From the NCBI RefSeq assembly GCF_000374085.1, contig NZ_KB893522.1, forward strand, positions 1 to 64,000: a stretch of DNA of 64,000 nt, read 5' to 3'. Under the pieces are notes generated by a model that was not told where the DNA came from, ran no database searches, and saw only the letters and a program-made list of their open reading frames with translations. Below are positions 22,588 through 61,815 of the stretch, piece by piece. The first letter of the stretch is position 1, and each line of letters starts with the position of its first letter. Source of the DNA: Spirosoma spitsbergense DSM 19989 (GTDB lineage Bacteria > Bacteroidota > Bacteroidia > Cytophagales > Spirosomataceae). The position numbers were made by a program, and so were the translations under genes.

Positions 22588-22595
22588 TATCTTTG
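22588..22595 (+). promoter_or_regulatory. -7 box of the SprB-repeat gene
   Basis: TATCTTTG, an exact TAnnTTTG match, 30 bases before ATG 22626. It overlaps an upstream in-frame codon at 22593, which supports 22626 as the start. Confidence 0.45.
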
Positions 22596-22625
22596 TTTGT
22601 TGGCTATGACCGTTACCTGCCTGAT

Positions 22626-24965
22626 ATGAGAAATTTTTTATCGTCTTTTTGCCTGTTCACCGTACTGATTAACAGGACTATCGCTTTTGTTTTCCTCGGG
22701 TTACTCATTGGTTGGGGGCGGGTATACGCGTCCATTCCGCAACCGGCTGCTGCTCCTGCTGCCCTAACCGTAGTGGTAAGTACCGCAACGGCAGCCGTTT
22801 GTGCGGGAACCAGTACCACACTCACGGCGTCCGGTTGTCCTGCGTCCGGTTCTCTTCGCTGGTCAACTGCCCAAACCGGGAGCGTCATTAGCGTAGCACC
22901 AAAACAAACGACTTCGTACACGGCCATCTGCGAGGTAACCAGCACAACGGTTGTCAGTTCTACCGCTACGAGTACAACCGCTAACACTACAACGGCTATT
23001 GTAACAACCGTTACGGCAACCACCGCAACAGCTACGGTACGGGTTATCCAGCCGATCACGGTAAAGCTCGACACGATTCCTCCCGTATGCAACGGTAATA
23101 AAGACGGAATGGTCGTTATCAATGCCAGTGGAGGGTCAGGTGCTTTGCAGTATCAGTTTGATGGTCAGCCCTTTCAAACGCTCAATACATTCGGTGCTTT
23201 GCGGGCGGGTACGTATCCCATCGTTGTGAAAGATACGGAAGGTTGCCTGCTTCAAACGAGCGTTACGCTAACGCAGCCCCCGGCCTTATCCGCCAGTGTT
23301 TCGGTTATCAGTACAAAATGCGTTGGTGGCGCAGACGGGGCTATTTCAGTCGTAGCGTCGGGCGGGTCAGGTAACTACCGGTATGCACTCCTTAATGTTA
23401 CTGCCCAGCAAACTAGCGGAGTTTTTCAGGATTTGAAGGCTGGAACAGAGTACACGCTTATCGTCTCTGATAAGAATACCTGTGTGCTGTATAAAGATAT
23501 AACCATTGGGCAACCGACTCCATTTACCATCAAATTAACTCCTCAGTTAACCCGTTGCGTTGGCTCGGCCGATGGTAGCGTGGCCATTTCTGTTTCCGGC
23601 GGGTCGGGGGCGTATCAGTACAAGTTGGGCAGTGGACCCTTTCAGACGGGCGCACAATTTACCGGCCTGGCTGCCGGTACTTATGAGTTTACCGTTATTG
23701 ATAACATCGGGTGTCAGGGAAAACAAAGCACAACAATCGGGCAGCCAGCCCCGCTGGTGCTGACTGCCTCAACTACACCCGTCAACTGTTTGGGACCTAG
23801 TACAGGCTCCATTAAAGTTGGCGCTACCGGTGGTACGGGGGCCGTGACCTATCAGCTTTCCGAACAAACAGCCCCGTCTGCTGCGGTATTCAACGGGGTT
23901 GCCGTGGGTACCTATACGATTGTTGGGACGGATGCCAATGGTTGCACGAGTCTCGCGTCGGCAACGGTCGGTAAAATAAATCCGGTAAAAGTGCAGGCCA
24001 GTGCCCTACCGGCAACCTGTTGTTCATGTGCTACCGGAGCCGTTAGTCTGACCGCTACGGGAGGGACGGGAACGGGCCTCCAGTTTCAGGTAATTGGTCG
24101 ACCTTTACAGACGAATAGTCAAATCGGCCAGCTGACACCCAATACGTACCGGTTGCGGATAGTGGATGATGGCGGCTGTAGCGACTCTGCCACCGCCGTT
24201 GTGGTAGACCAGAATCCATTGAGCCTTTCAGTTGGTAGTGTCAACAATATTTCCTGTGCGGGAGGGAAAGATGGTGAGGCAACGGTTTTGGTAAAGGGAG
24301 GCACAAAACCATTTACCTATTACTGGCAGACCGAGCGGCAGGATACCCTCAAAAATTACGCTGCCAGACAGACCGCCCTGCCCGAAGGAACGTATACGGT
24401 GAGCGTACGGGATAGCAATCTCTGTAGCGCACCTACGGTATTCGTTACGGTAAAATCCCTGAATCCGGTGCCACCAAAGCCGGTTGTGAGCGTAGTCGGG
24501 AACAGCACCTTAACCGTCAACCAAACGACGGGTATCCAGTGGTACGTTCAGACGGGAACCAGTCCCGGCACACCGGTTCCCAATGCCACGGGGCCAACGC
24601 TTGTGCCGTTTGCCAGTGGTCAGTATTATGTTGTCACCACCGCCAATGGTTGCGCGTCGCCCCCGTCCGATGCCCTGAATTTTATACTGACTGCCCTCAA
24701 TGAACCCATAGAATCATTATCGGTAAGAATTGTTCCGAACCCGGTAACTGACCGTCTGCGGCTGGAAATCGAACAGCCCGAACGGTCGGCCGTGCAGGTT
24801 GAAATGCTTGATGTCTCGGGTCGGGCAGTGCGTCAGTTTCAGCTACCGGCTTTCACGGGTAAAAAGCAGGCCGACTGGTCGCTCAACGGCGTTCCGGTAG
24901 GTACTTACCTGCTTAAAGTAGTGACCGGAACGCGCCAGTCGGTGCTGCGGGTAGGGGTGGAGTGA
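22626..24965 (+). CDS. SprB-repeat surface protein with T9SS sorting domain
   Basis: About 779 residues from 22626, which starts a signal peptide (MRNFLSSFCLFTVLI...). After an N-terminal region and a Thr/Ala/Val-rich low-complexity stretch (about 100-140) there are six SprB-like repeats of 75-80 residues. Each carries a C-x-G-x-x-D/T-G motif and a GGSG turn (CNGNKDG, CVGGADG, CVGSADG, CLGPSTG, CCSCATG, CAGGKDG). The last 80 residues (VRIVPNPVTDRLRLEI...GTYLLKVVTG) are a type A T9SS sorting domain. It should be exported by the type IX system and displayed on or released from the outer membrane, as an adhesin-like protein. Confidence 0.85.
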   Translation: MRNFLSSFCLFTVLINRTIAFVFLGLLIGWGRVYASIPQPAAAPAALTVVVSTATAAVCAGTSTTLTASGCPASGSLRWSTAQTGSVISVAPKQTTSYTAICEVTSTTVVSSTATSTTANTTTAIVTTVTATTATATVRVIQPITVKLDTIPPVCNGNKDGMVVINASGGSGALQYQFDGQPFQTLNTFGALRAGTYPIVVKDTEGCLLQTSVTLTQPPALSASVSVISTKCVGGADGAISVVASGGSGNYRYALLNVTAQQTSGVFQDLKAGTEYTLIVSDKNTCVLYKDITIGQPTPFTIKLTPQLTRCVGSADGSVAISVSGGSGAYQYKLGSGPFQTGAQFTGLAAGTYEFTVIDNIGCQGKQSTTIGQPAPLVLTASTTPVNCLGPSTGSIKVGATGGTGAVTYQLSEQTAPSAAVFNGVAVGTYTIVGTDANGCTSLASATVGKINPVKVQASALPATCCSCATGAVSLTATGGTGTGLQFQVIGRPLQTNSQIGQLTPNTYRLRIVDDGGCSDSATAVVVDQNPLSLSVGSVNNISCAGGKDGEATVLVKGGTKPFTYYWQTERQDTLKNYAARQTALPEGTYTVSVRDSNLCSAPTVFVTVKSLNPVPPKPVVSVVGNSTLTVNQTTGIQWYVQTGTSPGTPVPNATGPTLVPFASGQYYVVTTANGCASPPSDALNFILTALNEPIESLSVRIVPNPVTDRLRLEIEQPERSAVQVEMLDVSGRAVRQFQLPAFTGKKQADWSLNGVPVGTYLLKVVTGTRQSVLRVGVE

Positions 24966-25022: not shown

Positions 25023-26087
25023 TTAATCAGCACGAAGCAACCGTTGTAACGGACTTTCAATCAGGTAGTACAGGAGATAGGCTGCTACAGTCAGCAGGAT
25101 GAACCGAAGCCCACTGTGTGTGACGCCTGCCTTTTGTAATACGTTGCTTAAAAGGCCTGTATGGATAAGGTAGAAGGCATAGGAACTCCGGCCCAGTATC
25201 TGCATCAGTGGATGGGATAACAACCGGCCAGCTACTGACGGTTGGGTAATCAGCCCCGTAAAAAAGAAACCGATACCAATGGGAAGGAGGATGTTATACG
25301 TCAGAATTTCGCTCCAGATGCCCTGAACGGGATCTATTGTGAAATGGGATAAACCGGCCTGCCAACCGACGCAGCCAAGCAGGATAATCAGCCCTGCCAA
25401 AGTCGGGTATGGAACCCCAGGTAAGCGGTTCTGATGCCACCGCTGGGCCAGCCACATCCCCATAACAAACTCGAACCCCCGGCCAAAAAATGTGTAGAAA
25501 AAAATGAAGGAGAGGGGACTAAATAACCCATAAAAAGCCAGTTGCCCAATCGTTGTCCACAACAAGATACCCCCGCTAACCAGCCCAACCGTCAGCCAAA
25601 GTGGTCCCCAGCGTCTCAAGAGTAAAAACAGGAGTGGAGCCATCAGATAAAAACAAATTTCTACGGTCAAACTCCAGCTCTGTGCAATTCCACTGAATTT
25701 ATACGCATTGAATAAGCCCTTCAGCAATGTTATATTCAGGCTGAATACTGATAACGACATCGGATTCCCCCGCCAGGTAGCCACGCCAACAGTTATGAGT
25801 AATAGCAGGGCATATAACGGATAAATACGGGCGAAACGGTTTTGTAGGTATCGTTGCCACGACCAGTTTTCCTGCCTGAAATAGGCATCGGCGTACCGGT
25901 GATAAATCAGAAAGCCGCTCAGCACGAAAAATACCGTTACGCCGATGTAACCCTGGTCGAACACGTGATGGGCAATTGTGCCGGGTGAAGCTGGGGTGTC
26001 GTGATGAAGAAAAACCAGATAGGCGGCAATGGCCCGCAGGCCGGTCAGGGCTGAGATATACTGGTCTGGTTTGCTGGAAACGGCCAT
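25023..26087 (-). CDS. Acyltransferase 3 (OafA-like) membrane protein
   Basis: Started at 26087, where the A of ATG is the last A of the upstream TAA (TAATG), so the two genes are translationally coupled; the frame is open further upstream inside that gene. The 354-residue protein begins YISALTGLRAIAAYLVFLHH, the acyltransferase 3 motif with the conserved Arg and His. It has about ten membrane helices, VFFVLSGFLIYHRY and NRFARIYPLYALLLL. It probably transfers acetyl or another acyl group to surface sugars. Coupling to the C25 peptidase gene is unusual. Confidence 0.85.
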   Translation of the reverse strand: MAVSSKPDQYISALTGLRAIAAYLVFLHHDTPASPGTIAHHVFDQGYIGVTVFFVLSGFLIYHRYADAYFRQENWSWQRYLQNRFARIYPLYALLLLITVGVATWRGNPMSLSVFSLNITLLKGLFNAYKFSGIAQSWSLTVEICFYLMAPLLFLLLRRWGPLWLTVGLVSGGILLWTTIGQLAFYGLFSPLSFIFFYTFFGRGFEFVMGMWLAQRWHQNRLPGVPYPTLAGLIILLGCVGWQAGLSHFTIDPVQGIWSEILTYNILLPIGIGFFFTGLITQPSVAGRLLSHPLMQILGRSSYAFYLIHTGLLSNVLQKAGVTHSGLRFILLTVAAYLLYYLIESPLQRLLRAD

Positions 26088-29000
26088 TAGCGGGTCAGAA
26101 TAAGCCGACCACTCAACTGCCCGGTTAACCCTGCCGCCACGGGCCAGGCTACCGGATCGGAAAGATTGATTGTGTACGTATATATCCCCGCCGGTAGCAG
26201 CGCACCCGCGTCTGAACGACCGTTCCATAGCCATTCATTCAGCCCGATACGGGTTGGTAAGGCAAGGTGCCGCACGACTTGCCCGTTCAGGTCGGTCAGG
26301 GTAATAATCAAGCCCTCTGGGGGCTGACTCCCGGTTAGGGTAAAGGCAAAAAGGGACTGGGCGTAAAATGGGTTTGGGTACACCTGCAAGCTGGTCAGTG
26401 CAGACTCCGCTACAACCCGAAAACTAACCTGATAAGGAATGGCCCTATTACCGATGGCATCGCGGGCTGTAGCCAGCAGGTGATAGAGTCCTTCGGATAG
26501 AAGCGGGGAGGGATAGCGTACGCGGAATGCACTGTCGGCACCTATCGCCGGGATAGTCGCTTTCTGCCAGCTGAGTCGCTCGAACGGCTCATTTTTGCCG
26601 GGTCGTTGCAGGTATAAATCAAGCCCCGTCGTGTCGTGCCGGATGAGCGAGTGGTTTTCATCGGCTACCAGCAGGTCAATCCGGGGCCTGGCCGAAACCA
26701 CGGCCCCATCCGTAATGCGGGCACCATCGAACGCAACTTCCAGCAACGGTCCAAACGTGTCGGGTTGTACGAACAGGGGAACATTGAGGGTGTTGTTCAG
26801 ATAGGAATATTCGGGTTGAAGATGCGGATTTACCGTGAGCACAAGCCGGTTGAGACCCGGTAGTTTTTCGGTGGCAATAGGGGTAGTGAATCGAACGGTG
26901 TCGGAAGGCATTGGGGAGGGTATCCGCCACTGGCTGGTTTGTGGATTCGATAACCCGGCCGCGTAAATCGTTTGCCGGACAATGAGTGAGTCACCGCCAA
27001 AGGCATAGGAACTCAGGTTGGTAAACGCCATCGGAATGTGCAATACCGCCCCCTGCTCTACGCTGGCCGGTAAGGGACTCGCCAGTGCCAGTTGAAGCTG
27101 CCCTTCGGGCAGGCCAGTCAATACGCTGGATGGGGCGTAAGTAAACGATGCCATAGACCAAGGGGCTAATCCTACCGCGCTATCGGCCCGACGAACGCGC
27201 CAGAAATACGGCGTGTTAGGGCGACTGGGTACAGTGGTCAGGTAACTAATGCTGTTGCCCGCCACCAGATGCTGCGTTTGTTTGAAGGGCGAGTTGAACT
27301 GGTTCGTGCTATCCAGTTCCAGGTCGAATGACTGGTTTCCATCACCAAAATACTGCGCGACCAACCGTACGCTGGTTGTTTTTACCAGGCCACCATCGGG
27401 CGGATAAACCAGAACAGGTTGTTGCGGGGCAACACTGATTTCAACCGTAGCCTGATTATTAGTCCGGTTGGCTTCGGTTTGGGAGTTGGGTAATCCGGTG
27501 GGATTGATGGTTACGTCGAACAGGTTTTGCCCGTCCGCCAGCCGGTCATTGGGAAATGTTATTGTCAGGGTATCCCGGTAGGCAACGGTATGGGGGATGG
27601 TTAGGTCGAATAGGCCCGATTCCCTCCCGTTCACCCGTCTGCGCACCAGAACTGGAAGCATCCCCGGTCTGTACTGCCCGGCATTCTGAATGACAGCCCG
27701 AATCTGTACCGAGTCACTCAGGGTTGTCAATGGCCCGTTGTGGGTATCCTGAACGGTTAGCCCTCCACTGGGCAGGGCGTAGTCGGGGGTTCGGAAGGGG
27801 AACAGGTGGATCGCCGGGTCGCCCTGCAGCACCATTTGTTGTGTATTTGCCAGGGTACGGCCACCGGGTGTTTGAGCCAGTACCCGCCGGATCGTTTCCT
27901 GCTGGAGCTGGCCTATGGATTTGTACAGGTACGTACTATCGGTCAGGAGGGTATAAAACTGCGTGGTGTACTCGTGCATCACCTCCGTGTAGCCGAGATG
28001 GCTCTGGGCGATGGCCGCAATAGCACCCCGGTTGGGTGTGAGAACCCAATCCGTTGTTAATGTTGGGCGGCCAAAAAAGAAATTCCCGATGGCACAGCCA
28101 TTCACGAACAGGAGCGGGTATTGGCCGGTATTCCGGTAGCCGAGCGCATCGCTGGAAGCGAAACCAATGTCCAGGTCAGTCACGTCCAGTCCCGAATGCC
28201 CGAAGAAAGTGATTAAGCCAACGCCCGCGTTGACAGGTTTGGCGATGGGTAAGGACTCAACCAGATTGTCAGTTGCTTTCTCAAAGGTCGTCACCCGCGC
28301 TCCCAGCGACGGACTTATTGCCTGCTTTTGGTAGGAGTCTACTAACCCACGAAACAAGTCCCGCTCTCCCGATGACTGACCTCCGCTCAGGTGCAGGACG
28401 TTTTTACGCCAGAGCGCATCATCCGACGAACCTTCGTACTGCTTTACTTTATTGAGGTAATCGAGTACTTCCTGCGGTGTGCCCGCATTGATGCGACCCG
28501 TAGGCAGGGTCGGAACGTCCAGTTCCGTGCCGGACAGACCGGTGGTAAATGGGCCATCGGAGCCGGGAAATCCAGCGGTCATTACCATATCCAGCTGAGT
28601 CTGTAACGGGTTGCGCCGGATGCCGGGCGTACTGCGACTACGCCCAATCAGGAGCAGATAGGGCACTGCATCCCCCCGTTGCCGAAGCATTTGCCGGGCA
28701 AAGCGCCGGATAGCCAGTGGATGTCGCTCACCGTAACTATACTGGTCGAAAAGTTGCTGCATGGTTGCCGTGAGCGTGTCATAACTCCCCCCGGCTACCG
28801 ATGCCCGGTAATTTGCATACGCCTGAATCGCGTTGATTGTACCCGACGTTCTGCCGGATTGTAACAGCAGGTCATGCGTGATAATCAGATAAGTTGGTTT
28901 TCGATTATGCCAATTGACGAAAGATACGGGCCGGATGTCAGGCGTTTTATGGAATTCGGATGTGCTGAACAGGGTACAGGGCGTATCGGTATTTCGTACC

Positions 29001-30154
29001 ACAACCCGGACGGTGTTGACGGTTCGAGTCGTTGTGGTGCCTACCCGAATGGGCGCGTCAGGATTTGATATGTCCCAAAATCGAGTACCTGGTACTACGT
29101 TCGTTACGTCCATTCGGGAACGCCCCAGTGGATTGGATTCGAGTCGAAATACGGTTTGCGTCTGACCGTTCGCCGTTAGTTGCTGCGGATACCGGACCCG
29201 GCTATATGAAACGGAATAATCATCGGTAGGGGCAGCTTCCCCGTCGGAAACGGTCGAAACCGCTAATCGACCATCGGTGCCTACATCCGACCAGTTGACT
29301 GTATGCTGAATGCGGGCATTATCGTATCCCACAAACCGGGTGCTATTCAGTAATCGCTGACCTGTGAGTATCGACCCCACCAGGCAGTCTACCCGGTGAT
29401 TGCTGAAGCCCCGCCCCACCACTAACATGTCAATCGCTGGCTTTGGGCCATCCCTACCTGCGTTTGTCAGTTGAAAAGGGATGGCGAATGGTTTATCTTT
29501 CTGCTGGATTGGACCCGTGTAGCCTTCGCCCGCTTCGTAGTAGCTATATTCTACCTTTTGGGGCAGACCAGCGGCCCAGCCGGGGTAGTTGTCGGTGAAT
29601 AGCCGTAGCTCCTCCGCCCAGTGGTAGGTTTCCGGAACCAGATTGCTGGTGGTATCGGTGTACGCAGCCATGCGTTTACCGGGTTGCACTGCCCTGTTGG
29701 GCAGGTTGAGCTGCCACGTCAGGAAATAAGCAGTAGTGTCGTTGAACAGGCTATAATACGGGTGAGGCTGGGCTGTGTACGGTCGGTAGAGAAGTGAATC
29801 AGGTGCTCCATCATTACGCTGCCCATAAAATTCAAGAAAATCACCTGTGTCAAAATGACCGTCTGCCTCTCCGTCAACGTAAATAGCCTGCTCCACGCCC
29901 CGGTGGAAAAGCTGCATGGTACCGGGCGTAATCTGCTGAACCGGCACACCCGCCTGTTGTAGTTCAGTTGCGGTTAGGCGATAAATCCCATTTTCGGCAA
30001 TCGGTATCTTATAATAGGGCTGATCGTAGTTGATCCAGCGCGTAGGGTCGGGGTCGTTCGGGCTGGATTGGGCCTGCGTGCGTACAGGAAAGACGATCAG
30101 CAATACGACCGCCACTCCGGTAATGGCCGTATACGGAAGCTTGCTGATTGCCAA
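26087..30154 (-). CDS. Secreted C25 (gingipain-type) peptidase with T9SS sorting domain
   Basis: A 1355-residue protein. The start is TTG at 30154; it gives a good signal peptide (ISKLPYTAITGVAVVLLIVF...RTQAQ), and no in-frame ATG lies nearby. An N-terminal PorU-like region is followed by the C25 caspase-like catalytic domain (about 415-790), with catalytic His about 653 (ITFFGHSG) and Cys about 687 (FVNGCAIGN). Several immunoglobulin-like CARDB domains follow (about 800-1250), with YPNPF and NGQVVRHLALP in the C-terminal T9SS domain. Size and layout fit PorU-type sortases or gingipain-like proteases. The presence of its own sorting domain favours an exported protease rather than PorU itself. 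Confidence 0.85.
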   Translation of the reverse strand: MAISKLPYTAITGVAVVLLIVFPVRTQAQSSPNDPDPTRWINYDQPYYKIPIAENGIYRLTATELQQAGVPVQQITPGTMQLFHRGVEQAIYVDGEADGHFDTGDFLEFYGQRNDGAPDSLLYRPYTAQPHPYYSLFNDTTAYFLTWQLNLPNRAVQPGKRMAAYTDTTSNLVPETYHWAEELRLFTDNYPGWAAGLPQKVEYSYYEAGEGYTGPIQQKDKPFAIPFQLTNAGRDGPKPAIDMLVVGRGFSNHRVDCLVGSILTGQRLLNSTRFVGYDNARIQHTVNWSDVGTDGRLAVSTVSDGEAAPTDDYSVSYSRVRYPQQLTANGQTQTVFRLESNPLGRSRMDVTNVVPGTRFWDISNPDAPIRVGTTTTRTVNTVRVVVRNTDTPCTLFSTSEFHKTPDIRPVSFVNWHNRKPTYLIITHDLLLQSGRTSGTINAIQAYANYRASVAGGSYDTLTATMQQLFDQYSYGERHPLAIRRFARQMLRQRGDAVPYLLLIGRSRSTPGIRRNPLQTQLDMVMTAGFPGSDGPFTTGLSGTELDVPTLPTGRINAGTPQEVLDYLNKVKQYEGSSDDALWRKNVLHLSGGQSSGERDLFRGLVDSYQKQAISPSLGARVTTFEKATDNLVESLPIAKPVNAGVGLITFFGHSGLDVTDLDIGFASSDALGYRNTGQYPLLFVNGCAIGNFFFGRPTLTTDWVLTPNRGAIAAIAQSHLGYTEVMHEYTTQFYTLLTDSTYLYKSIGQLQQETIRRVLAQTPGGRTLANTQQMVLQGDPAIHLFPFRTPDYALPSGGLTVQDTHNGPLTTLSDSVQIRAVIQNAGQYRPGMLPVLVRRRVNGRESGLFDLTIPHTVAYRDTLTITFPNDRLADGQNLFDVTINPTGLPNSQTEANRTNNQATVEISVAPQQPVLVYPPDGGLVKTTSVRLVAQYFGDGNQSFDLELDSTNQFNSPFKQTQHLVAGNSISYLTTVPSRPNTPYFWRVRRADSAVGLAPWSMASFTYAPSSVLTGLPEGQLQLALASPLPASVEQGAVLHIPMAFTNLSSYAFGGDSLIVRQTIYAAGLSNPQTSQWRIPSPMPSDTVRFTTPIATEKLPGLNRLVLTVNPHLQPEYSYLNNTLNVPLFVQPDTFGPLLEVAFDGARITDGAVVSARPRIDLLVADENHSLIRHDTTGLDLYLQRPGKNEPFERLSWQKATIPAIGADSAFRVRYPSPLLSEGLYHLLATARDAIGNRAIPYQVSFRVVAESALTSLQVYPNPFYAQSLFAFTLTGSQPPEGLIITLTDLNGQVVRHLALPTRIGLNEWLWNGRSDAGALLPAGIYTYTINLSDPVAWPVAAGLTGQLSGRLILTR

Positions 30155-49932: not shown

Positions 49933-49981
49933 TAATGGTACTTTTTACTGAGTAATTCATAGGGGTAGCGTTGAAAAAGTG

Positions 49982-52407: not shown

Positions 52408-52965
52408 ATGAAACAAATTGAAAAACAGGTTATTGGGCTGGTCTGCCTTGTGCTGGTAGCCATAGGTTGTAACAGAGATGAGCAGCATGTGTCGCCAACC
52501 GGCGACAATGAGGCTGTGACAACCGCCACCCTCGTATTGACAAATAAGGCCGTTCCAACCGAGATCGTGACGGCCACCATTGAAAACCTGAACGCCACAG
52601 TCGATTTCACCAGAGCTACGCTAAACCTCAGGGCGAATACGACCTATAGGGGCGAAATAACGCTGCTCAATAAGTCGATAATGCCCACGCTGGATGCTAC
52701 TGAAGAGATAAGAGACCTGGCAAACGAGCACCTGTTTGTCTATACGCCCACCCCCGCCAGTTTGCTTACCATAACCCCGATGGATAAAGACACCAATCCC
52801 GCCCCCGGCCCGTATCCAATCGGATTAACCATCGAGATAAAGACCGGAACGGTTGGCACGGGCAAGCTGAATGTGGTACTGCGTCACCAGCCGGGTTCAA
52901 AAAACGGAACGCCCACACCCGGTACATCTGACCTGGATACCGATTTTCCGGTAGTGGTTAAGTAG
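52408..52965 (+). CDS. Lipoprotein partner of the TonB receptor
   Basis: 185 residues with a lipobox (VAIGCNRD, Cys about 21), so anchored in the outer membrane. The mature part has TTATLVLTNKA, NLRANTTYRGEITLLNKS, YTPTPASLLTITPMDKDTN, PIGLTIEIKTG and KLNVVLRHQPGSKNG, the pattern of small Bacteroidota lipoproteins (often annotated type 1 periplasmic-binding fold) that sit after ZnuD-like receptors. It may deliver the substrate to the receptor. Confidence 0.75.
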   Translation: MKQIEKQVIGLVCLVLVAIGCNRDEQHVSPTGDNEAVTTATLVLTNKAVPTEIVTATIENLNATVDFTRATLNLRANTTYRGEITLLNKSIMPTLDATEEIRDLANEHLFVYTPTPASLLTITPMDKDTNPAPGPYPIGLTIEIKTGTVGTGKLNVVLRHQPGSKNGTPTPGTSDLDTDFPVVVK

Positions 52966-53123
52966 GATGGAATTAGAATCAGATTGTGGGTTAACACTGC
53001 CGATGGATTAACTCGCTGCGTACCAAAAGAGAGGTTCAGAACTTTCTTACAATACGTTCGATATATGTTTTTCGATGCATATTGCCCTTACCAATCAGGC
53101 TGGCACGAGTGTACAGGATAAAA

Positions 53124-53276
53124 TCACCCGTTTTTTTTCCATAAATAGTGAAATTCGTTGTGGTCAAACCAAACGGTATAGCCAGAGCCAGCCGCTTCGT
53201 ACTCATGTGTTTGGGAACTACAGGCCGTTGAGCCTGGCTTCAGGAAGGTCCCAATGGCGTTGGTCAACACAGGTGA
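53124..53276 (-). pseudogene. Relic resembling a DUF1349-type domain fragment
   Basis: In 52966-53277, apart from isolated bases, the minus strand has a 49-codon protein-like frame without a start: GTFLKPGSTA, then EYEAAGSGYTVWFDHNEFHYLWKK. This fits the family pattern of a beta-sandwich domain in which G-S-G is followed by xxWFxxDEFxFxWKK. It runs from the isomerase stop to a TGA. It looks like a leftover of a downstream gene of the operon; no function is expected. Confidence 0.5.
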
Positions 53277-53277
53277 T

Positions 53278-54273
53278 CTACTTAAACACCTTATCCTGCG
53301 CGGCTTTTAGGTCGAGGAGCATGGCCGGTACCAGCACGTAGGGATCATAGGGTTTATTTTTTACATACAGCGTTTCGATGGGCAGGTATCCCCGGTAATT
53401 GCTGCGTTTCAGAATCTGCATGAGCCTGGGCATGTCGGTGGGGATCTCGCTGCCAATACCGAACACGCTTTCTTTCACCTGCCAGTTCACGGTGTATGGA
53501 ATGACGGCTTCGATATCGACGTAGGGATCGACTACCTTGAAATTGCCGGTATCCAGAATAAGGCCCGCCCATTTAGAGTCGACGGCTTTCACGACTTTAA
53601 TGCACTGCTCGGCCGTTTGCAGCATATCACCGTGGTTCTGAATGCCGATAATTACGCCGTGCTGCGCCCCAAAAGCCGCGCACTCTTTGTAGGAGTCGAT
53701 CATCCAGCCCGCTACCTCGTCCCACTTGTTTTCGTAACCCTTCGGAATTTCGCCGGCAAACAGACGCAGCACGGGAGCACCCAGCTTTTCAGCGACGATA
53801 ATCCATTCTTTAGCCCGCTTCACGTCGGCCGCCCGCACGGCGGGGTCGGGCGAGGCAAAGTTGTTGCGGATGCCGGTACCGCTGATGTCGATACCCAGCT
53901 TGAACGCTTTGCGCTTCAGGTTATAGATGTACTCGTCGGAGGGCACTTCCGGGTAGCCGGGAAAATAGTACCCGGTCAGGTCGACCGCGGCAATGTTCTG
54001 CGATGCGCACCAGTCCAGCAGTTCGGGCAGGGTCAGCGTCGCTTTTTTATCGACCTGCCGGTTGCCCGTCAGCACGTCGTTGAACGAGTAGGCGTTCAGC
54101 GCCAGTTTGATGTGGGCGGGGTGATCTGTCTTAATGACGCCCTGCGCCAATAGGGCCACGTGGCTAAACGCCAGCAGCAGAGCCAGCAACGATATCCTGG
54201 TAAGGTGTTTTGTAGGATGTACAGGCACAATCGTAAGGGGTAAGGATGTAAGAGACACTAGTGTATAAAGCAA
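53278..54273 (-). CDS. Secreted sugar phosphate isomerase/epimerase (xylose-isomerase-like barrel)
   Basis: 331 residues if started at 54273; a GTG at 54225 would begin closer to the signal peptide (HLTRISLLALLLAFSHVALLAQG). The TIM-barrel motifs are LNAYSFNDVL, IAAVDLTGYYFPGYPEVPS, GIQNHGDM (metal His/Glu-type site), LDTGNFK (metal Asp) and YLPIETLYVKNK (Glu). It is exported or periplasmic and should rearrange sugars freed by the neighbouring glycosidases. It is the last gene of the operon. Confidence 0.8.
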   Translation of the reverse strand: MLYTLVSLTSLPLTIVPVHPTKHLTRISLLALLLAFSHVALLAQGVIKTDHPAHIKLALNAYSFNDVLTGNRQVDKKATLTLPELLDWCASQNIAAVDLTGYYFPGYPEVPSDEYIYNLKRKAFKLGIDISGTGIRNNFASPDPAVRAADVKRAKEWIIVAEKLGAPVLRLFAGEIPKGYENKWDEVAGWMIDSYKECAAFGAQHGVIIGIQNHGDMLQTAEQCIKVVKAVDSKWAGLILDTGNFKVVDPYVDIEAVIPYTVNWQVKESVFGIGSEIPTDMPRLMQILKRSNYRGYLPIETLYVKNKPYDPYVLVPAMLLDLKAAQDKVFK

Positions 54274-54304
54274 GAAAGTGTATTGAATTTACCGGGTTTG
54301 GGGC

Positions 54305-56638
54305 TCAGCGACGGACAACTTCGAAGGTATCCCTGAGGTAGTCGGCCGAACTGCGTCCGATCTGTACCTCGAAGTCGCCCGGCTCCACCAGTCGCTTCAT
54401 ACCCAGCCCGAAATATTGAAGTTTGTCGGGTGTTATCCGGAAGGACACCGTTTTGGTTTCGCCTTTGTTGATCCGGATGCGTTTGAAGTCTTTCAGCTCC
54501 TGCACCGGCCGCGTAACCGAGCTGATCAGGTCGCGGATGTACAGCTGCACCACCTCGTCGCCGTCCCGGTCGCCGGTATTGCTTACCTCAATCGTGGCCG
54601 TAACCGTCCCGTCGGGGGCGACTTTTCTGGTGTCCAGCCGTAGGTTCCGGTACGCGAAGGTCGTGTAACTCAGCCCATAGCCGAATGGGTACAGGGGTGA
54701 GTACGCGCCGTTGATGTACGGACTTTCGTGGACGTAGGGCTTATGGTTGTAATACACCGGCAACTGGCCCACGTGACGTGGGATGGTAACGGTAAGCTTG
54801 CCGGCCGGATTGGTCCGGCCAAACAGTACATTGGCCACGGCATTTCCCTGTTCCTGGCCCAGGTACCAGCCTTCCAGCAGGGCGGGGGCGTTTTCGGAAA
54901 GGTAGTTGACCGACTGCGGCCTTCCGTTGATGAGCAGCACGGCGGTTTGTTTGTTTAGTCCGAAGATCGCCTTCGCCAGGTCGTTCTGCCGGCCCAGCAA
55001 GTCCAGGTCGTAATGGTCGCCGGTGTGGCCTTTCCACTCTTCGCGGCAGGTCAGCTCGTTGCCGCCCATCACCAGCAGCACGGCGTCGCAACTGCCGGCC
55101 AGGGCCACTGCTTCGGCAATCCGGCGCTGCTCGGCTTCGGGCGTTTTGTCGGCCGGGGCAATGGATTCGTCGTTCTCGTAAATCTTGAACCCCTCGGCGT
55201 AAACCACCTCAAACTTACCCTTTCCGTAGGCCCGCAGCCCGTCCAGAATCGGAACACCGGGCGTTTTGTCGTTGGAGTAATTGCCATAATGTACCTCGTC
55301 GGCGTTGGGGCCGATAACGGCCAGCCGTATGATGCCGTTTTCGTTGAAGGGCAGCGTCTGGTTCTCGTTGCGGAGCAGAATCAGCCCTTCTTCGGCTGCC
55401 TGCCGGGCCAGTTGCCGGTGAGTCTGCGCCATTGCCTGCGCTTCCGGCTCGCTCATGACCGGGATGTAGGGATGCTCAAACAGGCCCATCATAAACTTGT
55501 TCCGCAACACGCGGGTCACGGCCGAGTCGAGGACCGCTTGGGGCACCTCCCCCGACCGAACCTGCTCCGGCAAAAACCGGAAACAGTACGCCTGCGGGCT
55601 GCTGGGGCATTCAAAATCCATGCCTGCCGTGATGGCCCGGCGACCCGCTTCGGCCTGGCTGGCACTGGCATGCTGCCGCGACACCATGCGGTTCATGGCG
55701 TCATAATCAGAGATAACGTAGCCCGTAAAGCCCCACTCGCCCCGCAGCACATCGTTGAGCAGCCAGCTGTTGGCGTGATTCGGCACCCCGTCGATTTCGT
55801 TGTACGACGCCATCACGGTGCGCACATTCGCCTTTTTGACGGCCATCTCGAACGGGTAAAAATGCGTTTCGCGCAGCACCCGCTCCGAAAAATTTCCCGG
55901 CGCCAGGTTCGTGCCGCCTTCGGGTTCGCCGTGGCCCGAAAAATGCTTGGCGCAGGCAATCAGGTGGTTTTCGTCGATGTCGGGGGTGCGGCCCTGCAAG
56001 CCCCGAATGGACGCTACGCCCATTTCGGCTACGTGGTACGGGTCTTCGCCGAAAAACTCTTCCGCCCGCCCGAAGCGGGGGTCGCGCAGCAGGTCGATGA
56101 CGGGGGTAGCCGTGTGGGTGATGCCGTAGCTCCGCATTTCCCGGGCCACGGCCGTGTACACCTGCTCGATCATGTCGGGGTTCCAGGTGCTGCCCAGCAG
56201 GGGCGGAGCCGGAAATACCGTCGACTTATCCTCATTGCCCACAAAGCCGTGGCATCCTTCGCCGTTCGAAATAGCGGGAATGCCCAGCCGGGTCTGCTCC
56301 ACAAAATACCGCTGAATGGCGTTGAACCGGGCCGCGTAGTCTGCCCGGTTCATCTGCACCTTGAATTGCAGAAAACCAACGCCATTATGAACGGTATCGC
56401 CCATGGCGGCCAGGGTCAGGGCGAGCGTGTCGGGTTGGCTCAGGTCGGCTTTGGGGTGCCAGACGTCGAGCTGGCGGCACTTATCTTCGAGCGTCATGCG
56501 CGACAGCAAGTCCCGCACCCGCGCTTCGAGCGGAGCCTTCGGGTTTTTGTACAGCGGCTTCGGCGGGGCCGGTGCGTTGCCCGCCAGCAAAAAGGTCGAC
56601 ACCGTGAGGAGGCAGATGGAACGATGTATTTTCTTCAT
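54305..56638 (-). CDS. GH3 family beta-glucosidase
   Basis: 777 residues. A signal peptide (MKKIHRSICLLTVSTFLLAGNAPA) precedes the GH3 N-terminal barrel with KHFSGHGEPEGG and GYVISDYDAM (nucleophile Asp about 307). The alpha/beta sandwich domain has AVIGPNADEVHYGNYS, ELTCREEWKG (likely acid/base region) and the C-terminal fibronectin III-like domain (TGDRDGDEVVQLYIRDL). It is a periplasmic or secreted exo-glucosidase or xylosidase. It lies 21 bases behind the other GH3 gene. This region is GC-richer than the flanks. Confidence 0.93.
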   Translation of the reverse strand: MKKIHRSICLLTVSTFLLAGNAPAPPKPLYKNPKAPLEARVRDLLSRMTLEDKCRQLDVWHPKADLSQPDTLALTLAAMGDTVHNGVGFLQFKVQMNRADYAARFNAIQRYFVEQTRLGIPAISNGEGCHGFVGNEDKSTVFPAPPLLGSTWNPDMIEQVYTAVAREMRSYGITHTATPVIDLLRDPRFGRAEEFFGEDPYHVAEMGVASIRGLQGRTPDIDENHLIACAKHFSGHGEPEGGTNLAPGNFSERVLRETHFYPFEMAVKKANVRTVMASYNEIDGVPNHANSWLLNDVLRGEWGFTGYVISDYDAMNRMVSRQHASASQAEAGRRAITAGMDFECPSSPQAYCFRFLPEQVRSGEVPQAVLDSAVTRVLRNKFMMGLFEHPYIPVMSEPEAQAMAQTHRQLARQAAEEGLILLRNENQTLPFNENGIIRLAVIGPNADEVHYGNYSNDKTPGVPILDGLRAYGKGKFEVVYAEGFKIYENDESIAPADKTPEAEQRRIAEAVALAGSCDAVLLVMGGNELTCREEWKGHTGDHYDLDLLGRQNDLAKAIFGLNKQTAVLLINGRPQSVNYLSENAPALLEGWYLGQEQGNAVANVLFGRTNPAGKLTVTIPRHVGQLPVYYNHKPYVHESPYINGAYSPLYPFGYGLSYTTFAYRNLRLDTRKVAPDGTVTATIEVSNTGDRDGDEVVQLYIRDLISSVTRPVQELKDFKRIRINKGETKTVSFRITPDKLQYFGLGMKRLVEPGDFEVQIGRSSADYLRDTFEVVRR

Positions 56639-56659
56639 AAGCCCGGCGGGGGGATGGGG

Positions 56660-59179
56660 TTACTTGATGAGATTGGCAATGTCGGTTGGAATAACACGGC
56701 CATCGGGTAAGGAGAGCCGCCCTTCGCAGCGGTTATTGGCCGGGTTCAGGTCGTTATCGGCTACGCCCCCGGCTCGGGCCTTAATGGTCACCGTGCCCGT
56801 GGGTACCGTCCAGCCTTTGCCGGCGATGGCCTGCCCGCAGATCTGTTGCATGCCGCCCACGGGAATACTCGTGCGGGTGGATTGATACAGGGCCACCTCC
56901 CGGCCGTCGACGGCGAAACTGACGCGGTGCAGGTCGCCCTTTTGGGTCGGTCCCGTGCCGTTGTTGATGAGCGAGGCTGTAAACAAGACCGTGTCGCCCG
57001 CTTTGGGGAAGGCCGGGATGGTGCGGATATTACGCACCATCAGGTCAGGACGGGCATCGGCCCGGCTAAGGGTAAAGGCAGCCTGTAGGGGCAGCGTACC
57101 CGACGACCCGCCTACCTGGACCCGAAACGCGCCTTCGGGCACGCGGTACGCGTGGGTTTGTTCGTCGTACACGTACAGTTCCTCGGGCGTGAGCGTCAGG
57201 GTTATCCGTTTGGTTTCACCGGGATTGAGCCGCACTTTCTCAAACCCCCGCAACTGCTTTTCGGGCATGGGGAGGCTGGGCACGATCCGGTCAGTCGACA
57301 GGTACAACTGGGCAACCTCGGCACCCGGCACCGAACCGGTATTTTTCAGATCGAACGAAACGGTGATCAGATCACCCACCCGGGCATCGGAGCGGTTGAT
57401 CCGGATGTTGCTGTACGCAAAGGTGGTGTAGCTGAGCCCGAAGCCGAAGGGAAACTCGGGGGTGAGCTTTTGCGAGTCGAACCAGCGGTAACCAACGCCC
57501 CGGCTCACCATGTTACGAAAATCGGGGCTGATGGGCAGAATCTGGCTATCGTCCTTCGGTATGGTAGCCGGGAGCTTACCCGATGGGTTGTGGGCGCCGA
57601 ACAGCACGTCGGTAATGGCCCGCCCGCCTTCCTGCCCCGGATAAAAGGCGTAGAGCAGCCCCTTCACGTTGCGGACTACGGGCGTGACGCTGCACGTACC
57701 GCCTGACAATACCACCAGCACAATGTTGGGGTTGACCGCTGCCACAGCATTGATCAGTTCGTTCTGCACGCCCGGCAGGAGCACCGTTTGTGAGGGCCGG
57801 TCGGGTCGGGCAACGGCCCCGCCCCCTTTCTCGTCGGCTTCCTTATCCAGAAAATACCCTTCACCCTCTACCGTACTGTCCAGCCCGGCCACCAGCACCA
57901 CGTATTCGGCGCTTTTGGCCAGGGCGAGGGCCGCGTCGAACTGCGAGCGGTCCGTATCATTGATGTTGCAGCCTTTGGCGTAGGTGACCCGTTCGGCACC
58001 AAGTTCACGCTGGAGCGCCTGTAGCACCGGAATCCGGTACGAAGGCAGCACTTTGGAACTGCTGTTACCATCGAGCGGCAGCACGGACGCGTTGGGGCCA
58101 ATAACGGCTACCGACTTCAGCTTGTCTTTCCGGAAAGGCAGGATAGCGCCTTCGTTTTTGAGCAGTACCAGACTGTTCAGGCCGCTTTCATAGACCAGCT
58201 GCCGGTGCTCCTCACTGTCGATCACGCTCTTGGGCACCACCGGCACCCCGTCGATCATGCCGGAAACCAGCTTGGTCCGCAGCACGTTGCGAACGGCCCG
58301 GTTCACGAGGCTGCTATCGAACCGTCCCGACTGTACCCCACCCGGCAGTTCCTTGATGTACAGATCGTTGCCTTCGCAGAAGTCCAGCTCCGACGACAGG
58401 GCTTTACCCGTATCCTTGAAGCCGCCCCAGTCACTCATAGTGTAGTAGTCGAACCCCCAGTGGTCTCGCAGTAGCGTTTTGATGAGGTAGCTGTTTTCGG
58501 CGCACTTATCCCCGTTGACCCAGTTGTAGGCGCACATCACCGACAGGGCCCCGCCCACCTGGATGGTACGTTTCCAGTGCGGACCCCAGAACTCGACCAG
58601 ACTGCGCTCATCGCTCAGGTAGTCATTGGTCCGGCGGTTTATCTCGTAGGTGTTCAGGTTATAGTGCTTGATGGAGCCGAAGACCGAGGTGGTGTTCTGC
58701 CCCAGCACGAAAGCCTCCGATATACGCCCACCCAGAAACGGGTCTTCACCGATGGTTTCAGGGGCCCGGCCAATGCGCGGGTCGATGAGCAGGTCTAGCG
58801 TAGGACCGGCGATGCGGTCTTTACCCCGGGCGGCCTGTTCGCGCGCGATGGCCCGCCCCACGCGGGTAATCAGGCCGGGGTCCCAGGTGGCAGCCATGGC
58901 AATGGTGACCGGGAAACTGGAGTAGCCTTTGGCCTTGTTGCCGATGCCGTGGGGACCGTCGCTGCCTTTGAATTGCGGAATACCCAGCCGGGCGTTGCCG
59001 TCGGTGAGGTAATAGAGCTGCTGGATCTTTTCCTGCATGCTCATGGACGCCAGCAGGGCATCAATCCGCTGCTCCAGCCCGTTGGCAGTTTCGGTTTGCT
59101 GGGCTACCGACGGTGGGACGACCAGCAGGCAGGCCAGTGCAATACCGTAGCGAATGAGAGAACTGTTCATTGTTACCAT
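56660..59179 (-). CDS. GH3 family glycosidase with CARDB tail
   Basis: 839 residues; Met4 at 59170 is an alternative start, both before a signal peptide (LIRYGIALACLLVVPPSVAQ). It has the GH3 barrel with GPTLDLLIDPRIGRAPET and YYTMSDWGGFKD (nucleophile Asp about 249), the sandwich domain (AVIGPNASVLPLDGNSS), the FnIII-like domain and a C-terminal CARDB domain (about 710-820, RPDLMVRNIRTIPAFP...GVADNDLNPANNRCEG). It probably works with the first GH3 enzyme on the same glycan. The gap to the upstream fused gene is about 22 bases. Confidence 0.92.
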   Translation of the reverse strand: MVTMNSSLIRYGIALACLLVVPPSVAQQTETANGLEQRIDALLASMSMQEKIQQLYYLTDGNARLGIPQFKGSDGPHGIGNKAKGYSSFPVTIAMAATWDPGLITRVGRAIAREQAARGKDRIAGPTLDLLIDPRIGRAPETIGEDPFLGGRISEAFVLGQNTTSVFGSIKHYNLNTYEINRRTNDYLSDERSLVEFWGPHWKRTIQVGGALSVMCAYNWVNGDKCAENSYLIKTLLRDHWGFDYYTMSDWGGFKDTGKALSSELDFCEGNDLYIKELPGGVQSGRFDSSLVNRAVRNVLRTKLVSGMIDGVPVVPKSVIDSEEHRQLVYESGLNSLVLLKNEGAILPFRKDKLKSVAVIGPNASVLPLDGNSSSKVLPSYRIPVLQALQRELGAERVTYAKGCNINDTDRSQFDAALALAKSAEYVVLVAGLDSTVEGEGYFLDKEADEKGGGAVARPDRPSQTVLLPGVQNELINAVAAVNPNIVLVVLSGGTCSVTPVVRNVKGLLYAFYPGQEGGRAITDVLFGAHNPSGKLPATIPKDDSQILPISPDFRNMVSRGVGYRWFDSQKLTPEFPFGFGLSYTTFAYSNIRINRSDARVGDLITVSFDLKNTGSVPGAEVAQLYLSTDRIVPSLPMPEKQLRGFEKVRLNPGETKRITLTLTPEELYVYDEQTHAYRVPEGAFRVQVGGSSGTLPLQAAFTLSRADARPDLMVRNIRTIPAFPKAGDTVLFTASLINNGTGPTQKGDLHRVSFAVDGREVALYQSTRTSIPVGGMQQICGQAIAGKGWTVPTGTVTIKARAGGVADNDLNPANNRCEGRLSLPDGRVIPTDIANLIK

Positions 59180-59201
59180 ATAAGTTCAGGGTTTTTCAGG
59201 C

Positions 59202-60584
59202 TTACTTATCGAGGTACTGGATCAGTTCGTAGGTGTGGTCGTTCAGCAGTTTCGCACTGTTCAGCATTGGGGTGTACGGCGTAAAGTTGCTATTAACCAC
59301 TCCCTTGTTCGAGTCGCGGTTGGAGGGATCGGTTTTCATATTCAGGGGGTCGTTATCCTGGTAGGTGAACCAGTGCCAGCCCACGCAGGCTTTGCTTTTG
59401 AGCAGTTCGATGGTGAAGTTCTGGTAGAAATAGCCCCGATCCTGCTGGGTGGATACGTTCCAGCCGGCGCCCGTGCGGTTGGGCAGGCCCGAGTCTTCGC
59501 CTTTGGTGTACCACTCGGTAATGATAAACGGCTTGCCCGACCAGGCCGTCCAATTGGCCATGATGGATTGTACCGGCTCCCACTTTCGGTAATGGTTAAT
59601 GGAAATCACGTCGGCATATTTACCGGCCACCCTGAACATTTCGGGGTTGTTCAGCTCTTCCGTTTCCTGATTGAAGCGGCAGCCCAGATACAAGTGATTC
59701 GGGTCGTACTTGCGCACGGCAGCGGCCACTTTCTGAATGTAGGTCTCAAAATAATAGCCCGAAAAGGCCAGCTGGTCTTCGGGGGTGATGTCGGCGAGTC
59801 CGGCAGCCTTGCCTTTGCGGGTATCGAACCATTTGCGGGCGGCCAGATACCCCGGCTCCTCTTTGCCAAGGTACTGCAGGTGCCGGTCGAGGGCGTCGTT
59901 TTTCCAGGGTAGTTCGTTATCCGTGAAGTACCCCAGCAGGTGTTTGTCGGCTGTGTAATAGGCAATCGGCGCAATGGCCTGCTCTACGTAGGCATCAAAC
60001 TCGGGTGGCCAGGTCGTAGCGGTAGCCTTGCCAGCCCGCCATTTCGTACTTGCCGCCAAACTTTTTGATGTGGTCCGACTTGTAACTGCCCATCGGGCTG
60101 ACGATGACCGTGTACACCAGCGGGTTGGGCGACTGGCGAATGGCGTCCACGTCCCACCATGCCCCGGCTCCGTTGAAGCCGTTAGCCCGCAGAAGCTGGC
60201 GCGTTGCTGAGCCGAAAATTCATCGTCCAGCAATAGCTGTTCAGGTGAGAGGGTTACCGTAAACTCACTGACCTGCTCGGTTAACTCATCATTTTTGGGC
60301 CGATTTCCCGCCAGCCGGAGCATCTTTCGGCGCAGGGATTTGTACAGGTAGTTTCTAACGGAAGGCGTATGGCTCAGGAACGTCCGACGTTGCCATAGTT
60401 CAGCAAACAGTTCTTGAATGGCGTCTTTGATAAAGTCAGCATCAGGAGAAAACTTATGGCCGTACTGAAATAGAATGGGGTAGTAGCGAGTGAAAAGCTG
60501 TTCAAATGCGTCTTCGTTTCCTTCTACAAAAGAACGCCAAGAAGCCGCTTCCTTATTGGGAGTATCATCGTATTCTGCAGCCAA
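59202..60584 (-). CDS. Chimera: ECF sigma factor front fused to an agarase-like glycoside hydrolase
   Basis: 460 codons from a TTG at 60584. Residues 1 to about 120 are a Bacteroidota ECF sigma factor (FEQLFTRYYPILFQ..., DAIQELFAELWQRR, region 2) that lacks region 4. Residues about 194-460 are a clan-A glycoside hydrolase of the agarase-like type, with acid FTDNELPW and nucleophile IITEWY. The 70 residues between are nonsense in this frame, while the neighbouring frame there reads proper enzyme sequence (SATRQLLRANGFNGAGAWWD...). So a deletion joined the two genes near 60205-60225, and a 1-base loss in a C run (60003-60005) restored the frame by chance. The enzyme likely lacks its start and its signal peptide. 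It heads the glycosidase operon. Confidence 0.8.
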   Translation of the reverse strand: MAAEYDDTPNKEAASWRSFVEGNEDAFEQLFTRYYPILFQYGHKFSPDADFIKDAIQELFAELWQRRTFLSHTPSVRNYLYKSLRRKMLRLAGNRPKNDELTEQVSEFTVTLSPEQLLLDDEFSAQQRASFCGLTASTEPGHGGTWTPFASRPTRWCTRSSSARWAVTSRTTSKSLAASTKWRAGKATATTWPPEFDAYVEQAIAPIAYYTADKHLLGYFTDNELPWKNDALDRHLQYLGKEEPGYLAARKWFDTRKGKAAGLADITPEDQLAFSGYYFETYIQKVAAAVRKYDPNHLYLGCRFNQETEELNNPEMFRVAGKYADVISINHYRKWEPVQSIMANWTAWSGKPFIITEWYTKGEDSGLPNRTGAGWNVSTQQDRGYFYQNFTIELLKSKACVGWHWFTYQDNDPLNMKTDPSNRDSNKGVVNSNFTPYTPMLNSAKLLNDHTYELIQYLDK

Positions 60585-61026
60585 TTACCATGAATGAAAA
60601 CAGTTGAAAACTACTAAAAGCAACTGCGAAATAGTATTAATTTAATGAATAATACAAAAATTTCTTCCCTGCATTATTTCAATCGATGGTTTATTTAAGC
60701 CTAACTCACAGATTTTAAGACTCAAATCCTTCATTCACGGTTGTAACTATCCAAACGGGTCTGATTTGAGTGCAGGGAACTGGTGATAGGTCATAAACGG
60801 AAACGGATCGACTTGCAAAAATCGACTATTCCGTCCTCTTAGCGTTTACCGTTAGGGGTGACTTACGACTGAACTCGTGTTTTAGTGACCTCAGCCCTCA
60901 AGACCCAACCACTAACGGCCATGCCAACTGTTCCGACGATAGCCCTGACTGGTACTACTTCTAACCAGTTGCTAAAATTTCCCCGAACCAACCAGTACGG
61001 TTAGCTGGGGATAAGTAGTCGCTATT
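60585..61026. other. Intergenic region without recognised gene
   Basis: About 440 bases upstream of the fused gene and behind the queuosine-transporter gene. A 27-codon frame at 60921-61004 (+) and a short ACTGGT/ACCAGT dyad near 60950 are the only structures, and neither is convincing. The sigma-factor promoter should lie in its first part. Confidence 0.4.
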
Positions 61027-61815
61027 CTACATAAATGAACTCATAGCGGATTCATTCGCCAGTTCTTCAGCGTGTTCTTTACCCAGGTAGCGGTCAATGA
61101 AATAGTGGGCTACGTAGAGCAGGGGCGTAAGCACAATGGCCGAGGTGGCTTTGTAGATGTAGTTGATAATGCCCACGGCCAGCACCTGCGTTAGCGACCA
61201 GTTGCCAAACACATAGAACGCAATCCCCAATACCACGAATGAATCTACTAACTGCGAAACGAGCGTAGACCCCGTGGCTCGTAGCCATATTTGCCGACTG
61301 CCGGTAATTTTACGGAGGTAATGGAACACATACACATCCAGAATCTGTCCGATCAAAAAGGCTGTCAGCGAACCAATGATGATACCCAGCCCCTGCCGGA
61401 AAATCATCTGGAAGGCATTGTTGATATTGATTGGATTCCCGGCCCCATCGTTTGCATTGACATCCAGCCAGAACTGAGCGGGCGGGAGCGTGGTAACGAC
61501 GAAAATAATCAGGAAACTGAAGCCTACGAACCCCGCCGTCAGGAAGGAGATACGCTGAACCCCCGCCTTACCGAAATATTCGTTGATAATGTCGGAAGTG
61601 ATGAAGACAAACGGCCAGATCACCGCCCCCGCCGTCAGGTTGAAATCAAGGATAAAATCGCCGAACAGATGAATCTGGGCGGGTTTTGTACCCAGGAGGG
61701 TTTCGACCGAAAAGATTTTGACACCAATTATTTCGGCAACCAGCGCGTTGGTTAGAAAGACTGCACTCAGGAAGATATACAGGTTGGAGCGTTTGTTCGT
61801 GAAGGAGGAGGCCAT
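61027..61815 (-). CDS. Queuosine precursor transporter (YhhQ/DUF165 family)
   Basis: 262 residues with six to seven membrane helices. It has the VUT family motifs NALVAEIIGVKIF, AGAVIWPFVFITSDIINEYFGKAGVQR (the SDIINEYFG signature) and LDVYVFHYLRKITGSRQIWLRATGSTLVSQLVDSFVV. Family members import preQ0/preQ1. It lies alone with no riboswitch seen upstream. Confidence 0.9.
   Translation of the reverse strand: MASSFTNKRSNLYIFLSAVFLTNALVAEIIGVKIFSVETLLGTKPAQIHLFGDFILDFNLTAGAVIWPFVFITSDIINEYFGKAGVQRISFLTAGFVGFSFLIIFVVTTLPPAQFWLDVNANDGAGNPININNAFQMIFRQGLGIIIGSLTAFLIGQILDVYVFHYLRKITGSRQIWLRATGSTLVSQLVDSFVVLGIAFYVFGNWSLTQVLAVGIINYIYKATSAIVLTPLLYVAHYFIDRYLGKEHAEELANESAMSSFM

Follow-up and report, generated by a model that had tools for sequence, protein, structure and literature searches.

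Several described systems resemble parts of the locus considered here. Fusions born of deletions, and the capture of promoters, are already known from the laboratory: in the work of Lind et al. 2015 (PMC4395868), deletions connect a gene with another one lying downstream of it, four intervening genes being deleted in one of the cases, and the resulting fusions, selected in the laboratory, activate the downstream domain, whereas our enzyme is cut and frame-shifted. On the side of the enzyme, agarases and a beta-1,3-glucanase are among the members of family GH50 named in PMC11079163. BpGH50 (PDB 5t3b) is matched by the profile of the intact relatives of our enzyme and by the model of one of them, whereas the frame described below is without the first 211 enzyme residues. 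On the side of the sigma factor, two sister genomes (G018 and G019) carry ECF sigma-FecR-SusC-SusD loci of the Bacteroidota type, with close relatives of the sigma part and of the TIM-barrel gene found in the 64,000-nucleotide stretch of DNA analysed here (the window); in contrast, the window locus is devoid of FecR, SusC, SusD and sigma region 4.

The object of the study is a single open frame of 460 codons with a TTG start, located at 59202-60584 on the minus strand, this start codon and its position being shared with both nearest sigma relatives (in G018 and G019). As the initial annotation had proposed, a sigma factor and a glycoside hydrolase are held in this one frame: codons 1-127 belong to the former, the following 66 codons (128-193, where about 70 had been estimated) are enzyme sequence in a wrong frame, and the last 267 are enzyme. 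Relative to the sigma frame the upstream enzyme piece has an offset of 2 and the downstream piece an offset of 0, in agreement with the return to the sigma frame that had been announced. Two unrelated gene parts are joined, each of them shortened by comparison with its normal length (Table 1). Our preferred explanation, to which we give a probability of about 0.8, is that a polysaccharide-utilisation locus has decayed and contains a fusion pseudogene, produced by an illegitimate join and by a separate 11-base deletion; most likely, it is ordinary gene decay and not a new kind of protein. The anatomy of the frame, both lesions in comparison with the relatives and the want of any match for the lost parts in the assembly were directly observed. 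No second copy of the fused region was found in the genome's own assembly, nor any comparable fused frame in the other genomes searched (39 related genomes; 36 of the genus), and no RNA element at 59000-61100 reached the Rfam gathering scores.

Table 1. Features of the fused frame and of its surroundings (positions in the window).
Feature	Position	Strand	Basis
Stretch upstream of the sigma start, similar in G018 and G019; possible promoter	60621..60660	-	DNA alignment
5' part of ECF sigma gene: region 2 and part of the linker, codons 1-127	60204..60584	-	Pfam, homologues
Sigma/enzyme join, exact base uncertain	60195..60210		Ends of DNA and protein similarity
GH50 remnant, out of frame with the sigma part and with the rest of the enzyme; from about L034 residue 142	60007..60203	-	Similarity
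Second lesion: one base, against twelve in 23/23 relatives	60006..60006	-	Alignment of relatives
3' part of GH50-type enzyme, in the sigma frame, 267 codons and stop	59202..60005	-	Similarity
GH3a, GH3 gene, apparently intact	56660..59179	-	Pfam GH3 domains; L034 homologue
GH3b, GH3 gene, apparently intact	54305..56638	-	Pfam GH3 domains; L034 homologue
Xylose-isomerase-like TIM-barrel gene	53278..54273	-	Family match; homologues follow SusD in G018 and G019

The sigma part is recognized by the Pfam model Sigma70_r2 (E 2.7e-07; PF04542, 30.7 bits for a cut-off of 24), its TIGR02937 score being below the cut-off (35.9 against 42.9 bits). When the whole 460-residue frame is scanned, region 2 (PF04542, 27.9 bits) is the sole sigma region, and region 4 gives no match at E ≤ 0.001; of an ECF sigma factor, region 2 is present and region 4 is missing. 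Among the 39 genomes searched, the nearest matches outside the window are those of G018 and G019 (75% identity, residues 11-128), and at E ≤ 1e-35 only these two and the window's own genome respond, i.e. 3 of the 36 genomes of the genus. Both relatives are intact, with 199-204 residues and regions 2 and 4, and are followed in both genomes by FecR, SusC, SusD and then the TIM-barrel gene, the SusC of G018 being a TonB-plug protein similar to that of G019. No intact copy of the sigma piece was found on plasmids, the 18 plasmid records that match being all below 60% identity. The conserved stretch upstream of the start is possibly the old promoter of the sigma gene, judging from its alignment with the sisters. 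The window copy of this stretch departs from those of G018 and G019 in its last motif. The sigma-70 consensus may not fit the promoters of this phylum, and no promoter of that consensus was found in 59000-61100.

For the enzyme part, 23 loci were collected by a scan of genome contigs and 20 whole genes were aligned (alignment A1), with the exclusion of L037 and L052, where the contig end cuts the gene, and of L040, which has a 691-aa frame. No Pfam or NCBIfam family was found for the enzyme pieces or for two intact relatives tried. Since the profile built on the 20 intact relatives matches PDB 5t3b (BpGH50) with an E of 1.6e-81, and since the same structure is the best fold match (TM 0.79) of the L034 protein model (pLDDT 88.6), the enzyme family is considered as GH50-like; four agarase sequences are also matched by the profile with E 2.1e-32 or better. 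The out-of-frame piece (60204-60004) is 78% identical to L034 residues 142-208 and the in-frame piece 82% to residues 206-478, in an alignment that begins at 60023. Across 266 columns the identity of the in-frame piece to L034 is 83.1%, and the least similar of the 20 relatives is at 63%. The intact relatives show GH50 similarity over their full length, whereas the window frame shows it from residue 212 onward only. In the L034 model, the N-terminal part and the strands at 110-115, 153-154 and 171-176, interpreted by us as barrel strands 1-3, lie before residue 212, and the (beta/alpha)8 barrel of the window enzyme is incomplete, three strands before residue 212 being out of frame or lost.

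The remaining enzyme sequence is little altered. Among the columns invariant in the 20 relatives, the in-frame part keeps 87/87 and the out-of-frame part 13/14 (S158 is replaced by W), and when the two most distant relatives are omitted these values become 100/101 and 21/22; because nearly all invariant columns are kept, the decay of the enzyme is either recent or slow, and this scarcity of other decay is a point against our preferred explanation. Two invariant glutamates, E242 and E375 in L034 numbering, are kept in the window enzyme, and would be the catalytic glutamates of clan GH-A by analogy with the GH50 enzymes treated in PMC11079163; both are retained, but much of the enzyme fold is gone. 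At E ≤ 1e-30, the window's own genome is the only one of the 36 in the genus to match the enzyme piece, and at E ≤ 0.001 a match is given by 2 of the 39 related genomes, the other one (32% identity) being that of G028, a genome from another taxonomic family. Intact GH50 genes occur in other genera. No intact plasmid copy of the piece was found; five plasmid records match, all with less than 60% identity. Two of the excluded loci have features of their own. In L037 (480-1385) the GH50 gene is GC3-rich and 78% identical to that of the window, on a contig labelled Opitutaceae, a group outside the Bacteroidota, so that either a wide transfer or a mislabelled bin would account for it. In L040 (5409-7484) the GH50 frame has 691 codons, about 200 more at the front than its relatives, and is possibly a natural fusion to another domain.

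DNA similarity to the sigma genes stops at 60195 for G019 and at 60201 for G018, and similarity to the enzyme starts from 60204; the sigma-like sequence runs to about 60204-60195, a little beyond the end near 60220 given initially. An illegitimate join near 60203 would have linked sigma codon ~127 to codon ~142 of a GH50-type gene, with the loss of sigma region 4 and of enzyme residues 1-141, and, if the locus had the layout of the sisters, with the loss of FecR, SusC and SusD as well, some 7 kb at least. At 60006, a deletion of 11 bases, separate from the join, would account for the damage to the enzyme and, by chance, for the restoration of the sigma frame, leaving the 460 codons open. The join was presumably made by a single event, the 11-base deletion could have occurred after or before it, and the 11-base difference would correspond to a loss in the lineage of the window.

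Between the alanine codon at 60007-60009 and the proline codon at 60003-60005, the 23 relatives all have 12 bases, encoding MVFD in 22 of them and PVWD in one, where the window has a single base. It had been suggested that one C was missing from the C run at 60003-60005; the three Cs are present, forming the proline codon of the enzyme, and the shortage adjoins them at 60006. A single absent base is rejected, because neither the number of bases (11) nor the frame offset fits. From the initial proposal of a deletion or two separate errors, we retain a join with DNA loss and a second lesion that restores the frame, while a sequencing error is disfavoured, since a gap of 11 bases is no slip in a homopolymer and speaks for a true mutation rather than a miscalled C run. 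This second lesion is called compensating in a descriptive sense only, and nothing indicative of selection for the fused product was seen. When a 66-codon stretch is placed at 1681 overlapping positions on the three neighbouring enzyme sequences, it is open in the relevant foreign frame at 166 of them (9.9%), with 67/199 for the enzyme, 32/772 for GH3a and 67/710 for GH3b, and in the other foreign frame at 314 of the 1681. Together with a 1-in-3 return to the sigma frame, the open middle has a chance of about 3%. This coincidence counts against our preferred explanation and, being spotted after the fact, is weak evidence for selection and no proof of it.

The assembly is a draft of 237 contigs and no genome labelled as the same species was met in the searches, which would leave room for an assembly or sequencing artefact; we nevertheless hold such a fault to be quite unlikely. 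Eleven bases are unlike a homopolymer slip, as said above, and the lost half of the enzyme is absent from every other contig, residues 1-141 giving no match on any contig of the genome at E ≤ 0.001. The 111 bases around the join match elsewhere at best over 16 exact bases (E 0.7). Misassembly driven by a repeat at the join was considered and rejected, the longer matches being imperfect (81-95% over at most 29 bases). Likewise, close copies of FecR, SusC and SusD are absent from the assembly: the genome has many relatives of these genes, but the best-scoring matches to those of G019 reach 36, 37 and 34%, respectively, all off the window's contig, and lower-scoring short SusC pieces reach 51%. 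Since the lost parts are unmatched and the best match of the join is 16 bases long, a real rearrangement is likelier than an assembly fault. Both GH3 neighbours align nearly full length to L034 genes (GH3a, 73.7% identity over 829 aa; GH3b, 75.7% over 754 aa), and among 10 other window genes scanned several match their models over nearly the full length (TatD, aldo/keto reductase, GSCFA, PorU2). Intact neighbours of this kind would be compatible with a fault that is local.

Comparison of 52501-61000 with the DNA of G018 and G019 leaves the sigma stretch and the TIM gene (85% identity to G018, 81% to G019) as the sole common parts; therefore, the ends of the locus agree and the middles differ, with FecR-SusC-SusD in the sisters and a cut GH50 gene with two GH3 genes in the window. 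The presence of the TIM gene at the far end of the locus, where in the sisters it follows SusD, was counted in favour of a lost FecR-SusC-SusD middle. Neither the SusC (E ≤ 1e-10) nor the SusD (E ≤ 0.001) of G019 has a match on the window's contig, and a receptor at 49979 is best fitted by heme-receptor models, its score for the SusC model TIGR04056 being 62 bits for a cut-off of 368. The association of SusC and SusD with enzymes which characterizes a polysaccharide-utilisation locus is thus not found here. GH3a, which begins 22 bases past the end of the fused frame, is confined, among the 36 genomes of the genus, to that of the window (E ≤ 1e-150), and GH50, GH3a and GH3b sit together in L034, L038 and L040. 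Around the 23 GH50 loci (ORFs of at least 150 codons, E ≤ 1e-8, several loci being short), a SusC match lies upstream on the same strand in 9 and a TIM match is present in 6, while matches above 60% identity were obtained for GH3a in 5 and for GH3b in 4. A sigma match upstream of GH50 was found in 0 of the 23 loci, and in L056 a weak one (24%) lies on the downstream side. For the ancestral locus, the order sigma-FecR-SusC-SusD-GH50-GH3-GH3-TIM is deduced and not seen, because no GH50 locus found has it, and the absence of the order sigma-FecR-SusC-SusD-GH50 from all relatives found is a further point against our preferred explanation. QueT is matched in 34 of the 35 other genomes of the genus, and in the 20 kb on the corresponding side of this gene in 5 sister genomes no ORF of at least 150 codons matches the sigma, FecR, SusC, SusD, TIM or GH3 references at E ≤ 1e-6. 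As these 5 sisters give no such match there, the locus adjoins QueT in the window's genome only, as far as sampled, and no undamaged version of this site was present in any relative found.

The composition of the locus bears on its origin. From 0.48 in the sigma part, the GC3 rises to 0.82 in the out-of-frame enzyme piece; the remaining enzyme has 0.75, the two GH3 genes downstream have 0.76 and 0.78, and the TIM gene has 0.70. In a sample of 105 ORFs of at least 150 codons from the same genome, taken from nine stretches picked by sigma, FecR or SusC matches, GC3 ranges from 0.45 to 0.71 (0.49-0.61 for the 8 sigma genes among them), and the maximum among 24 other ORFs of the window is 0.73. 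Since the GC3 of the enzyme block is above that of all sampled ORFs, with a step at the join, two origins may be united here, and from its composition the segment 54305-60203 (GH50 remnant and two GH3 genes, GC3 0.75-0.82) was probably acquired. This GC3 step suits two origins better than one operon, and in this respect counts against our preferred explanation in its simplest form. In a version of it that we regard as tenable, if somewhat doubtful, a GC-rich GH50-GH3-GH3-TIM block was transferred and became attached, in truncated form, to a GC-poor sigma gene already resident, perhaps assisted at the other end by homology in the TIM gene. The GC3 jump at the join, the restriction of the enzyme and GH3a to one genome of the genus and the grouping of GH50 with GH3a and GH3b in the three loci mentioned above are in agreement with such a transfer, whereas the order and strand of sigma and TIM, which are the same in both sisters, the TIM gene and the lack of any donor found are not. 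A mosaic TIM gene resulting from homology-aided recombination was examined over six blocks and no clear break was seen. We lean slightly to a deletion within one operon.

Regarding the product, the sequence suggests a protein deprived of sigma region 4 and of the first 211 enzyme residues, which would be inactive. The fused protein, modelled with 17 sequences, has a mean pLDDT of 67.8, with values of 24-54 for the blocks over residues 131-190 and of 70-95 for parts of the enzyme lobe. That sigma region 2, tethered to the enzyme lobe, gained a role as a working chimera could be argued from the coincidence of roughly 3% and from the conserved enzyme columns, but the middle comes from enzyme DNA in a wrong frame and has very low confidence in the model, region 4 is absent, the first 211 enzyme residues are not in frame and no other genome searched has a frame of this kind, and we find the idea hardly credible. 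Slightly less improbable, though still a long way from our preferred explanation, is a capture of the promoter, in which the fused frame would act as a translated leader, ribosomes shielding the message from early termination while the sigma promoter drives the GH3 genes; if true, it would be a natural case of a fusion retained for its effect on downstream genes. As a fusion pseudogene, the locus illustrates that a dead join of two gene parts, each still recognisable, can take the shape of a long open frame, which annotation may mistake for a working gene, and it is an example of a sugar-use locus without sensor and import genes in which two GH3 enzymes are retained. Elsewhere in the window, a PorU2-like type IX secretion sortase gene is found at 26087-30154, and a gene for an SprB-repeat protein with a type IX sorting tail at 22593-24965.
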